Made by a program: the position numbers and the translations under genes | Shown: positions 41,980-46,158 of the stretch, piece by piece | How positions within the stretch are numbered: the first letter of the stretch is position 1 | Layout of the letters: every line of letters begins with the position of its first letter | From: Corallococcus macrosporus DSM 14697 | GTDB taxonomy: Bacteria; Myxococcota; Myxococcia; Myxococcales; Myxococcaceae | Direction: 5' to 3' | Assembly: GCF_002305895.1 (NCBI RefSeq) | Contig: NZ_CP022203.1 | Span: 3,512,501-3,576,500, forward strand | DNA: 64,000 nucleotides | Notes under the pieces: generated by a model | Told to the model about the DNA's origin: nothing | Databases searched by the model: none | Seen by the model: only the letters and a program-made list of their open reading frames with translations

Positions 41980-43425
41980 GTGAGTGCGCCAAACACGATC
42001 ATCGGGCTGGGGGCCCTGACGGATCACCTCGCCACGGTGCCCCACCTGGACGCCTCCCGCCTCCAGCTCACCGCGGAAGAGGGCGCGGTGCTCCAGCTCG
42101 TGGGGCGCGTGGAGCGCATCGACCAGGTGCTGGCGCGCTCCAGGCTGGGCGAGCCGCGCACCATCGCCGTGCTGCTCGCGCTGCGCGCCAAGGGCGCCAT
42201 CGTCCCGGCGCGGGTGGTGCCCCGGGGCGCGCCCGCGCCCGTGGTGGACGCGGCCCTGGCCGAGGACGTGGACCTGGAGCCGGAGCGGAAGCGGGAGATC
42301 ATCGAGCTGGAGCGCTCGCTCGATGCGATGGACCACTTCGCCGTGCTGGGGTTGAAGCCCGGGGCGCCCGCGTCGGAGGTGAAGCAGGCGTATTACAACG
42401 CCTCGCGTCGCTTCCATCCGGACCGCTACTTCGGGAAGAACCTGGGCAGCTTCCGGGCCCGCATGGAGCGAATCTTCCGGCGCCTCACGGACGCGCACAA
42501 CGTGCTCATGCAGCCGGACAAGCGCGAGGCCTACCTCCGGGCGAACCCGGCGCTGGCCCAGGCGGAACGGGCCGCCGCGCCGCCGCCCGCGCCGCCGCCG
42601 CCGCCCGCGCAGCCGCTGCTGACGCCGGAGCCTCCGCCCGTCCACCACGCCTCACCGCCGCGCCCGGCGCCGGTGACCCCCAGCGCCGCCTCCATGCCTC
42701 CGCTGTCGCCCTCGCCGGGGGCCAGCGCGGCCGCGTCCATTCCTCCGGCCTCGCGCCCGCTGTCGCCTCCGCCGATGGCCAGCGCGGCCTCCACCATTCC
42801 TCCGCCGTCGCGTCCGCTGTCGCCACCGCCAGGGGATGACGACGCGTCCGAGGCCCGCCGCGCGGAGCGGCAGGCCCGGCTGGCCCGGCACCCCTACCTG
42901 GCCCGCACGGGGCGGCTCGCGGAGCTGATTGCCCGGGGCAAGGCCGCCATCGCCAAGGGCGACTGGGAGCGGGCCTACCACGACTTCCATCAGGTCCAGA
43001 CGCTGGACCCGAAGAACCGCGAAGTCGCCATGCTCCTGGTCAAGGCGCGACGGGGGCATGACGCGCAGCGGGCGACCATCGAGGTGTCCCGGGGCCGCGA
43101 GCTGGAGCGCCATGGCGACACCCAGGCGGCCATGGCGGCCTACCGGCTCGCCTGCTCGCTGGACGACCAGAACGCCGAGGCCGCCTGGCGCGCCGCCCGC
43201 CTGGGCCACCTGCTGGGGCAGGATGCGGCCGAAATCCGGGTGCTGGCGCAACGCGCCGTGGAGCTGGACGAGAACAAGGCGGAGTACCACCTGACGTTGG
43301 GAAAGGTGCTGTTGGACGTCGGATCGAAGAAACTCGCCAAGCGGGCCTTCGAGGACGCGGCGAAGCTGGCCCCGGACAACGCGGAAGCAAAGGCGTCGCT
43401 CAAGAAGCTGCGCTGGACGTTCTAG
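41980..43425 (+). CDS. J-domain protein with TPR end
   Basis: A 481-residue protein. A region of unknown fold (1-100) is followed by a J domain at about 113-180 with the HPD tripeptide in ASRRFHPDRYFGKN, which stimulates Hsp70 ATPase. A low-complexity Pro/Ala/Ser linker (about 185-300, with tandem SRPLSPPP phrases) leads to TPR repeats (about 310-480) such as AELIARGKAAIAKGDWERAYHDF. The GTG at 41980 is preferred; longer frames cross the promoter. An Hsp70 paralogue gene starts 18 bp later, so this is most likely its dedicated co-chaperone, with the TPRs choosing clients. Confidence 0.85.
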   Translation: MSAPNTIIGLGALTDHLATVPHLDASRLQLTAEEGAVLQLVGRVERIDQVLARSRLGEPRTIAVLLALRAKGAIVPARVVPRGAPAPVVDAALAEDVDLEPERKREIIELERSLDAMDHFAVLGLKPGAPASEVKQAYYNASRRFHPDRYFGKNLGSFRARMERIFRRLTDAHNVLMQPDKREAYLRANPALAQAERAAAPPPAPPPPPAQPLLTPEPPPVHHASPPRPAPVTPSAASMPPLSPSPGASAAASIPPASRPLSPPPMASAASTIPPPSRPLSPPPGDDDASEARRAERQARLARHPYLARTGRLAELIARGKAAIAKGDWERAYHDFHQVQTLDPKNREVAMLLVKARRGHDAQRATIEVSRGRELERHGDTQAAMAAYRLACSLDDQNAEAAWRAARLGHLLGQDAAEIRVLAQRAVELDENKAEYHLTLGKVLLDVGSKKLAKRAFEDAAKLAPDNAEAKASLKKLRWTF

Positions 43426-43443
43426 GAGTGAGCACGGTTCCCC

Positions 43444-45285
43444 ATGGCTGAGCCCGAACCCCTCATTGGCATCGACCTGGGAACGACGAACAGCATCGTC
43501 GCCACCGTCCAGGACGGCCAGCCCATCGTCATCAAGAACCGCACGGGCCAGACGCTGACGCCGTCCGTCGTGGCCATGGCGAAGAATGGCAAGCGGCTGG
43601 TGGGCGGCATCGCCAAGCGCCAGGCCATCACCAACCCGCAGGAGACGGTGTACGCCGCCAAGCGGCTCATCGGCCGGAAGTTCTCCTCGCACGAGGTGCA
43701 GGACGCGCTGCGCGCGCTGCCCTACGAGGTCGTCGCCGGGCAGCACGACGACCTGCGCATCCGCATGGGCGGCAAGGACCTGTCCGTCCCCGAAATCAGC
43801 GCCATGATCCTCCAGGAGCTGAAGGCGGACGCGGAGGCGCACTTCGGCCGTCCCGTCACCAAGGCCGTCGTCACGGTGCCGGCCTACTTCAACGACGCCC
43901 AGCGCCAGGCCACCAAGGACGCCGGCCGCATCGCCGGGCTGGACGTGCTGCGCATCATCAACGAGCCCACCGCGGCGGCGCTGGCCTACGGCTTCGGCCG
44001 CACGGTGAACGGGCGCGTGGCCGTGCTGGACCTGGGCGGCGGCACCTTCGACGTGTCCGTGCTCGAAATCTCCCAGGGCGTCTTCGACGTGGTGGGCACC
44101 GGCGGTGACACCTACCTGGGCGGCGAGGACTGGGACAACCGCATCATCGAGTGGCTCGTCTTCGGCTTCGCGAAGGAGCACGGCATCGACCTGCGCAAGG
44201 ACCGCATGGCGTTGCAGCGGCTCAAGGACGCGGCGGAGAAGGCGAAGGTGGAGCTGTCCAGCGTGAAGGAGGCGGCCCTCAACCTGCCCTTCATCTGCAC
44301 GCCGCCCGGCGGCGGGGCGGCGCTCCACCTGCAAGCCACGCTGACCCGCGACAAGCTGGACGACCTCACGGCCGACCTGGCGGAGCGGGTGGTGGGGCTC
44401 ACCACGGAGGTGCTGGGCGAGGCGGGCGTGCGCGCCTCCGAGCTCAAGGAAGTCATCCTCGTGGGCGGCATGTCGCGCATGCCGAAGATCGTGGAGGCCG
44501 TGCGCGGCTACTTCCGCCGGGAGCCCTGCAAGGGCGTCCACCCGGACGAGGTCGTGGCGCTGGGCGCGGCCATCCAGGCCCACGCGCTGGTGCAGCCGGA
44601 GCACGAGCTGCTGCTGCTGGACGTGACGCCGCAGAGCCTGGGCGTGGCCATCGCGGGGGGCTCGGTGCGGCGCCTCATCCCGAGGAACACCACCGTGCCC
44701 ACGTCCGCCACCGAGGTCTTCGCCACGTCGAAGGACCTCCAGCGCGTGGTGAAGATCATGGTGCTCCAGGGCGAGCACGACCTGGCGCACCAGAACGAGC
44801 TGCTGGGCGAGTTCGTCCTCACCGGCCTGCGGGAGGCGCCCCGGGGGCAGGTGGAGATCGACGTCACCTTCGACATCAACGCGGAGGGCATCGTCTCCGT
44901 GCACGCGAAGGACCGGGAGACGGGGCTGCGCCAGTCCATCACCGTCACCGCGTCCAGCGGCCTCACGGAGGAGGAGCTCAAGCGCATCATGGACGAGCAG
45001 CGCGGGTACCTCCTGGCCGCGCGGGCCTCCGAGGAGCTGAAGACGCGGCGCGTGGAGCTGGACTCGCTGGCGCGCGACGTGGTGGACGCCCTGACGCGGG
45101 CGCGGCTGCTCCCAGGCGGCGGCGGCCTGGCGGCGGACGTGATGCCTCGCGCGGAGCAGATGCTGGAGCACGCGCGCGCCGTCCGCGCGGGCGAGGACGT
45201 GGCGGCGCTGGGACGCGCCTGTGAGCTGCTGGCCGGGTGCCTGGCGCAGCTCAAGGGCTCGGCATCCAGCGGGACGGGGCGGTAG
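43444..45285 (+). CDS. Hsp70 (DnaK) paralogue
   Basis: A 613-residue Hsp70. The nucleotide-binding domain has [49 protein letters not shown] and [16 protein letters not shown]; the substrate-binding domain starts after [18 protein letters not shown]. The C-terminal lid is short and lacks the acidic EEVD-like end of housekeeping DnaK, and there is no grpE beside it. It sits between a J-domain gene and a TPR gene (which begins on the next base after the stop), forming a private chaperone set. M. xanthus has several DnaK paralogues, some tied to motility or development (SglK, StkA); which this equals I cannot say. Confidence 0.92.
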
Positions 45286-46158
45286 ATGAGCAGCCAGCGC
45301 GCGAACCAGCTCATCGAAGCGGGACTGTGGCTGCGCCTCAGCGGCGATGCCCAGGGCGCGCAGCGCCTCTTCGAGCGCGCGCTGGAGCTGGACCCGGCCA
45401 ACACGCGCGCCCGCGAGTACCTGGCGGCCGCGGCGGGGGCCCCCTCGCGAGGCACCGCGACGCCCTTCGAGCGGCCGCCGGACCTGGAGCCCTCGTCCGG
45501 GCGCCTGGCGCCCACGGACGCGGACCTGCCCGTGTCCCCGGCGCTGGAGGGTGACTGGGGCGCGTGGGCGGAGGGGCAGGGCGGTCCGCTGGAGGGCGGG
45601 AACAAGGCGCCCCCCGCGCCCGTCGTCCTGCCGGATGCGCCGGCGGACGCGCTGGAGCTGCTGGCGCGCGACGTGGTCATCGACGTGGACGAGCCCGTCG
45701 TCGCCGCGAAGGGGGATACCGACGAGTACGGCATCCCCGAGGGCCACACCCAGGAGTTCGGCCTGCCTCCGGTGGAGAGCGAGCTGGACCTGCTGCTGCG
45801 CGGAGCGGAGGACCTGCTGGAGCTGGATGACCACTCCGGCGCGGTGGACCTGCTCTTCAAGGCGAAGGAGCTGGCGCCCACGGACGCGCGCGTGGAGGCG
45901 CTGCGCGTGCGCAGCGAGCGGATGCTGATGGCGCGGCTGGAGTCCAAGCTGGGCGACCTGGGCCGGGTGCCCGCGGTGCGCCTCCAGCCGGACGACATCA
46001 TCTGGCTCAACCTGGACCACCGCGCCGGCTTCGTGCTGGCGCAGATTGACGGCTCGGTGAGCTACGAGGACCTCTTCTCGCTGTCGGGGATGACGCGGCT
46101 GGACACCGCGCGCATCCTCGCTCAGCTCATCGATGAGGGCGTCATCTCCGCGGACTGA
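45286..46158 (+). CDS. TPR protein of the chaperone cassette
   Basis: A 290-residue cytoplasmic protein starting at the ATG directly after the Hsp70 stop. A first TPR-like pair (residues 5-45: GLWLRLSGDAQGAQRLFERALELDPANTRAREYL) is followed by an acidic/Pro linker, a second helical repeat region (about 155-210) and a C-terminal domain of about 65 residues with LNLDHRAGFVLAQIDG and DEGVI. That last domain is found, from memory, at the end of various myxobacterial proteins, but has no function I know. Position says it works with the Hsp70/J pair. Confidence 0.75.
   Translation: MSSQRANQLIEAGLWLRLSGDAQGAQRLFERALELDPANTRAREYLAAAAGAPSRGTATPFERPPDLEPSSGRLAPTDADLPVSPALEGDWGAWAEGQGGPLEGGNKAPPAPVVLPDAPADALELLARDVVIDVDEPVVAAKGDTDEYGIPEGHTQEFGLPPVESELDLLLRGAEDLLELDDHSGAVDLLFKAKELAPTDARVEALRVRSERMLMARLESKLGDLGRVPAVRLQPDDIIWLNLDHRAGFVLAQIDGSVSYEDLFSLSGMTRLDTARILAQLIDEGVISAD

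Follow-up and report, generated by a model that had tools for sequence, protein, structure and literature searches.

The stretch of Corallococcus macrosporus DSM 14697 DNA analyzed here, which we refer to as the window, comprises 64,000 nucleotides (contig NZ_CP022203.1, positions 3,512,501 to 3,576,500; 3.51-3.58 Mb of the 8.97-Mb genome). It contains a cassette of three genes on the + strand that encode a J-domain protein with tetratricopeptide repeats (TPRs), an Hsp70 and a second TPR protein. The parts of this cassette are known singly; what appears to be new is the three-gene unit, its third gene and a winged-helix domain shared by the first and third proteins. The genes and their relevant domains are located at the following window positions:

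41980 to 43425, + strand: J-domain/TPR protein, 481 aa, GTG start; presumed ortholog of MXAN_3015 by position
42043 to 42225, + strand: N-terminal winged helix of the J protein, residues about 22-82 (hhalign, AlphaFold 2 (AF2) model)
42331 to 42534, + strand: J domain, residues 118-185 (PF00226, E 3.2e-12; Foldseek matches to J domains)
43444 to 45285, + strand: Hsp70 (DnaK paralogue), 613 aa; presumed ortholog of MXAN_3016
45286 to 46158, + strand: TPR protein, 290 aa; taken as MXAN_3017
45958 to 46155, + strand: C-terminal winged helix of the TPR protein, residues 225-290 (A2 alignment, AF2 model)

The stop codon of the J gene (43423-43425) and the ATG of the Hsp70 gene (43444) are separated by 18 bp, and the Hsp70 stop codon (45283-45285) is followed without a gap (0 bp) by the ATG of the TPR gene at 45286, which agrees with the three tightly packed genes described in the first-pass annotation, made from the sequence alone. 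The codon-position GC of the cassette genes (third position 0.91-0.97) has the pattern of real genes, and the GTG start of the J protein is supported because its relatives align from that residue. An antisense open frame of 1122 aa (42652-46020, - strand) spans the whole cassette and probably reflects no more than the codon usage of this 70% GC genome. A scan for promoters and terminators gave nothing informative. No grpE gene is linked to the cassette, the two copies in the genome being located at 5.34 and 7.93 Mb.

The Hsp70 is matched by PF00012 (HSP70) over residues 8-553 (673 bits) and aligns to E. coli DnaK 4-593, well in the nucleotide-binding domain and the beta part of the substrate-binding domain (SBD-beta) and less well in the lid. 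It thus has full nucleotide- and substrate-binding domains joined by an allosteric linker (LLLLDVTP), as expected of an Hsp70/DnaK protein, and lacks the acidic C-terminal tail of a canonical housekeeping DnaK. Of the NCBIfam equivalog cut-offs for DnaK, it passes that of NF001413 (PRK00290; 729 against 648 bits) and falls short of that of TIGR02350 (711 against 823 bits). The residues equivalent to R167, N170, L391 and D393, through which the J domain is contacted, are kept in 67/67 aligned cassette Hsp70s, and all 67 tips cluster in a tree in which support for the node is weak (0.54). The C-terminus also lacks an EEVD-like tail of the kind bound by TPR clamps of the Hop/CHIP type; the cassette TPRs could still bind partners other than this tail. 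Identity with StkA was rejected, as StkA is MXAN_3474, has 540 aa and is followed by an SCP2-like gene.

The J protein is organized as a winged helix (residues ~22-82), a J domain (118-185), a Pro-rich linker and TPRs (about 316-470; Pfam TPRs 316-467). The HPD motif at residues 146-148 is invariant in the family alignment and is followed by a long loop, GKNLGSF. With a PF00226 match and HPD, and with no DnaJ_C or zinc-finger match listed by Pfam, the protein is of the class C J-domain type. Pfam detected no HSCB_C domain, which sets it apart from the HscA-HscB Fe-S chaperones. The first-pass annotation was right about a J protein with its own TPRs and about an Hsp70 with neither an acidic end nor a linked grpE; its description of the genes holds overall, except that it overlooked the domain at J-protein residues about 22-80.

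The TPR protein begins with a TPR-like region (about 9-49) and ends in a conserved C-terminal part, the two being separated by a low-complexity stretch whose length varies. The only Pfam signals are one TPR-like match (9-39) and a Crp-like helix-turn-helix (243-288), both below the Pfam cut-offs. Residues 166-222 comprise a TPR hairpin together with a long helix, and the winged helix occupies residues 225-290. The last 65 residues, which had previously been noted as an unnamed C-terminal domain to be profiled, carry the family motif EIIWLNLDHRAGFVLAQIDG...SGMSRLDTARILAQL..EGVI; the profile identified them as a winged helix that is also present in the J protein and in DUF4388 proteins. An AF2 model of a 131-residue construct (mean predicted local distance difference test score 91.7) has a three-helix, winged-helix-like fold after the hairpin and long helix, and the layout of helices 32-41, 47-53 and 58-70 in the AF2 model of the J-protein N-terminus matches it.

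Using the deeper alignment, hhalign related the two termini with a probability of 96.8% (E 3e-10), compared with values of at most 4.4% for 31 decoy segments and at most 23% for 50 column shuffles. The probability was 55% without the two most telling intermediates, the J proteins of loci L144 and L165, the N-termini of which read GFVLSRIDG and AFVYTRIDG, respectively, and the shallow alignment gave a weak 3%. A comparison with the two J intermediates on both sides was not counted because it is circular. Foldseek alone yielded no significant match for the C-terminal construct of the TPR protein. VIA-align placed both AF2 models on one stretch of the GATOR1 chain 9v0j_B (254-325 for the TPR protein, Z 8.9; 251-327 for the J protein, Z 6.9), which supports a common fold of the models, not a common function. 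In comparisons with the winged helix of NPRL2/NPRL3 (GATOR1), VIA gave a Z of 9.2 for the TPR-protein C-terminus (rmsd, root-mean-square deviation, 2.1 over 69 aligned residues; 9o5a_C) and Z 6.5-7.4 for the J-protein N-terminus, the fold being small and helical and the Foldseek E-values not significant. Taken together, the C-terminus of the TPR protein and the N-terminus of the J protein are one winged-helix domain that was previously unrecognized.

This domain is found elsewhere in the genome. TPR-protein residues 151-288 match genome positions 3797123-3797533 (E 1e-7) in a protein that carries DUF4388, so that the TPR hairpin plus winged helix is homologous in sequence to a module of DUF4388/PATAN proteins. 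In all, three clear copies were found in the genome beyond the cassette: at the end of a DUF4388 protein (L170), in a receiver-DUF4388 protein (L171) and near the start of a protein otherwise without a named domain (L169). The winged helix seems to be an undescribed module of myxobacterial signaling proteins. Because the cassette J proteins of other classes also match across it, the ancestral cassette probably had this domain, which Anaeromyxobacter and a few others would then have lost; the ancestral domain order was probably winged-helix-J-TPR / Hsp70 / TPR-winged-helix. The profile of winged helix plus J domain also matches other long myxobacterial J proteins (genomes G082, G085, G115, G170 and G033), starting at about residues 10-28, and a winged helix preceding a J domain may be a recurrent architecture.

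Conservation was analyzed using one genome per species, which gave 80 loci from Myxococcus, Pyxidicoccus, Corallococcus, Citreicoccus, Archangium, Anaeromyxobacter and many metagenome-assembled genomes. In 68 of the 80 genomes the J, Hsp70 and TPR genes follow one another in this order and on a single strand, an arrangement too regular to be due to chance. The other 12 comprise three loci in which the contig ends inside the Hsp70 gene, six in which it ends before that gene and three Archangium loci without the J and Hsp70 genes. Of 193 genomes sampled from the phylum, 151 contain the C-terminal module of the TPR protein, and in four genomes fetched from outside the order it adjoins a J protein and an Hsp70 that is 56-58% identical to the cassette Hsp70.

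The neighborhood is also widely kept, with xerC-hslV-hslU-argD on one flank and maoC-like, epimerase and coaE genes on the other. In the window, the upstream neighbors are:

38632 to 40590, + strand: hslV and hslU, encoding an ATP-dependent protease (Pfam Proteasome and AAA_2)
40627 to 41871, + strand: argD-like class-III aminotransferase gene, directly upstream of the cassette (PF00202)

In some loci this flanking block has a rearranged order that resembles the outcome of a local inversion; across the phylum, hslVU adjoins the cassette even in such blocks. Farther downstream, the window contains a second J-protein gene (58678-59496, - strand), whose product has a TerB domain and a C-terminal J domain in a DjlA-like layout.

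Natural deletions reveal which parts of the cassette can persist alone. Three end states were found at the hslVU-argD locus, with the full cassette present in most lineages. The J protein and Hsp70 have been lost and the TPR protein retained in Archangium (g8), genus g36 and one g4 genome. In genera g30 and g40, the Hsp70 and TPR protein have been lost, and the retained J protein has an intact HPD and no winged helix. Genome G121 (g33) has none of the three genes, as far as searched; G125 was not counted as a loss since 6,001 of the 14,001 bases of its region read N. In the 20 unmasked deletion genomes, the best match to the cassette Hsp70 is 49-53% identical, which is the level of a paralogue, so no ortholog of it was found elsewhere in these genomes. 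The Hsp70 is absent from every examined lineage that lacks a partner; therefore, it is never seen without both in this sample, while either partner can persist in its absence. It does not hold that the J-protein winged helix disappears only together with the Hsp70, as the Anaeromyxobacter J protein lacks it within an intact cassette.

Pairwise identities, taken relative to those of HslU, differ between these lineages. After the loss, the TPR protein has a C-terminal identity of 46-55% where HslU is 80-82% identical, compared with 66-77% for intact cassettes at HslU identities of 75-83% (the exception being L138, with 58%). Likewise, the orphan J domain of g30/g40 is 58-59% identical, versus 71% in a lineage with the full cassette and an equal HslU identity. 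Relaxed or changed constraint once a partner has gone would be expected to produce lower identities of this kind.

The four best Hsp70s of the genome correspond to the four M. xanthus proteins named DnaK by NCBI, namely MXAN_3192, MXAN_6671, MXAN_2747 and MXAN_3016. Based on the spacing between them, the cassette Hsp70 corresponds approximately to MXAN_3016, and therefore the preceding J protein to MXAN_3015 and the TPR protein to MXAN_3017. According to Pan et al. (PMC8265645), an MXAN_3016 deletion mutant is normal in growth, single-cell movement, soft-agar swarming, predation and fruiting body formation, but produces fewer spores and, after H2O2 treatment, shows a longer lag and lower survival. 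They also report that MXAN_3016 is modestly induced by H2O2 and not by heat, and that it does not rescue E. coli dnaK at 37 °C. A role in development, one of two proposed earlier, hence gains support from the reduced spore number, and a role in motility is not supported by the mutant (PMC8265645).

MXAN_3015 was pulled down with MxDnaK1 and not with MxDnaK2, as confirmed by split luciferase, and its binding was abolished when DnaK1 was given the SBD-beta of DnaK2 (PMC11019930). The other J protein with DnaK1-only selectivity is MXAN_2745 (PMC11019930), which appears to be the J protein beside the Hsp70 MXAN_2747 (L083). If so, both DnaK1-only J proteins neighbor specialized Hsp70 genes, which suggests that such J proteins connect specialized Hsp70s with the housekeeping system. 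The searchable literature (open-licence papers only) yielded no report of MXAN_3015 binding to MXAN_3016, and no description of the three-gene unit, MXAN_3017 or the shared winged helix.

We consider, with a probability of roughly 55%, that the cassette is a conserved specialized Hsp70 unit of the Myxococcota that is linked to stress and sporulation and whose J protein is shared with DnaK1. It probably serves in protein quality control during starvation/sporulation and oxidative stress. The J protein would gather a limited set of clients by means of its TPRs and winged helix, and its HPD-containing J domain would pass them to the linked Hsp70 or, on other occasions, to DnaK1. That the J protein stimulates the linked Hsp70 is proposed because of established Hsp70 biochemistry and the full conservation of the J-contact residues. 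GrpE encoded elsewhere would reset the Hsp70 cycle in trans. The TPR-winged-helix protein may act as a client-side adaptor or holder, mainly together with the linked Hsp70; as this Hsp70 has no EEVD-type tail, the TPRs should not grip such a tail, and contact would run via the client or the winged helices. Of the self-contained chaperone machine envisaged in the first-pass annotation, the specialized Hsp70 unit stands, given its phylum-wide conservation, its J-contact residues and the absence of the Hsp70 in all examined lineages that lost a partner. "Self-contained" is too strong, since grpE is elsewhere, MXAN_3015 binds the housekeeping MxDnaK1, so that the J protein is not private, and two genera keep the J protein without the cassette Hsp70.

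Several points weigh against this interpretation. An operon may be conserved simply for the sake of its regulation. Anaeromyxobacter and others have a complete cassette in which the J protein lacks the winged helix, which is therefore not essential. We infer both the stimulation of the linked Hsp70 by the J protein and the interplay of the TPR protein with either. The assignment to MXAN_3015-3017 is presumed from gene spacing and the four-Hsp70 match rather than from the DK1622 sequence. Finally, all five hsp70 mutants tested had sporulation and peroxide defects to some degree (PMC8265645), so these defects are not specific to MXAN_3016.

The alternative that deserves most attention, although we regard it as doubtful, is that the J-TPR protein is mainly a DnaK1 co-chaperone and the linked Hsp70 an auxiliary holder, their linkage being largely historical. 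The selective, SBD-beta-dependent binding of MXAN_3015 to MxDnaK1 and the retention of the J protein without the Hsp70 in g30 and g40 speak for this view. However, the adjacent order is retained phylum-wide, PMC11019930 does not name MXAN_3016 among the partners assayed, and the lower identity of the g30/g40 J domain at the same HslU distance suggests that loss of the linked Hsp70 relaxes it. An assignment of the cassette to a quality-control island, as a refolding arm whose clients go either to Hsp70 or to HslVU, is unlikely. Although most loci with sufficient flanking sequence have hslV-hslU-argD immediately upstream, and hslVU is still adjacent, on the other side of the cassette, in the rearranged loci L139, L150, L156, L157 and L162, argD intervenes between the two, one inversion would keep neighbors together without selection, and hslVU remains where the J protein and Hsp70 have been lost.

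The end of one DUF4388 protein in this genome by a TPR-hairpin plus winged-helix module, and the presence of the domain in a receiver-DUF4388 protein, raise the option that the clients are winged-helix signaling proteins (DUF4388/PATAN proteins and PATAN response regulators) recruited through winged-helix to winged-helix contact. We find this improbable, as the contact is only presumed, winged helices may simply oligomerize and the further clear copies in the genome number only three. A related and rather speculative proposal, which we likewise find improbable, is that the winged helix would be a docking tag common to both co-chaperones and the PATAN signaling proteins, and the Hsp70 a dedicated assembler or remodeler of winged-helix signaling complexes during starvation and stress. 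A private machine for a motility client, as first envisaged, is very unlikely. It would resemble SglK and StkA, M. xanthus Hsp70s with roles in motility or exopolysaccharide (PMC8265645, PMC4319316), but the MXAN_3016 mutant moves, preys and fruits like the wild type (PMC8265645). Moreover, the neighbors of StkA (SCP2-like StkB and PhaE-like StkC) and of SglK (GrpE) are unlike those in the cassette.

The specialized unit favored here can be set beside known systems. HscA-HscB also combines a specialized Hsp70 with a linked J protein and has no linked grpE, but HscB has HSCB_C and sits with iscS/iscU-like genes, whereas the cassette has TPRs and winged helices; the isc-type operon of this genome (L085 2866-8051; HscB-HscA and a ferredoxin-like gene) is its third J-Hsp70 pair. 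The MXAN_2747-type pair (L083 4265-8662) likewise joins an Hsp70 paralogue to an adjacent J protein, taken as the DnaK1-only MXAN_2745, but there the Hsp70 precedes the J protein, ~700 Pro/Ala-rich residues precede the J domain, and there is no TPR-winged-helix gene. P58IPK/DnaJC3-type proteins combine TPRs and a J domain in one polypeptide, and P58IPK TPRs are among the fold matches; these co-chaperones are eukaryotic and have the TPRs first and the J domain last, whereas the cassette J protein has the winged helix, the J domain and then the TPRs. A cyanobacterial DnaK-DnaJ system (PMC9239167) is devoted to one cellular task, namely the activity of type IV pili and the secretion of polysaccharide; for MXAN_3016, no role in motility was found (PMC8265645). 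The presumed orthologs MXAN_3016 and MXAN_3015 of DK1622 are likewise an Hsp70 without the C-terminal tail beside a J protein, and differ in that the genes were treated singly (PMC8265645, PMC11019930).

The roles of the many myxobacterial Hsp70 paralogues are mostly unclear, and one of them now gains two candidate partners with a shared domain, together with a corrected phenotype. The natural deletion lineages show which part of the cassette depends on which, and a J protein shared between a specialized and a housekeeping Hsp70 provides a directly testable case.

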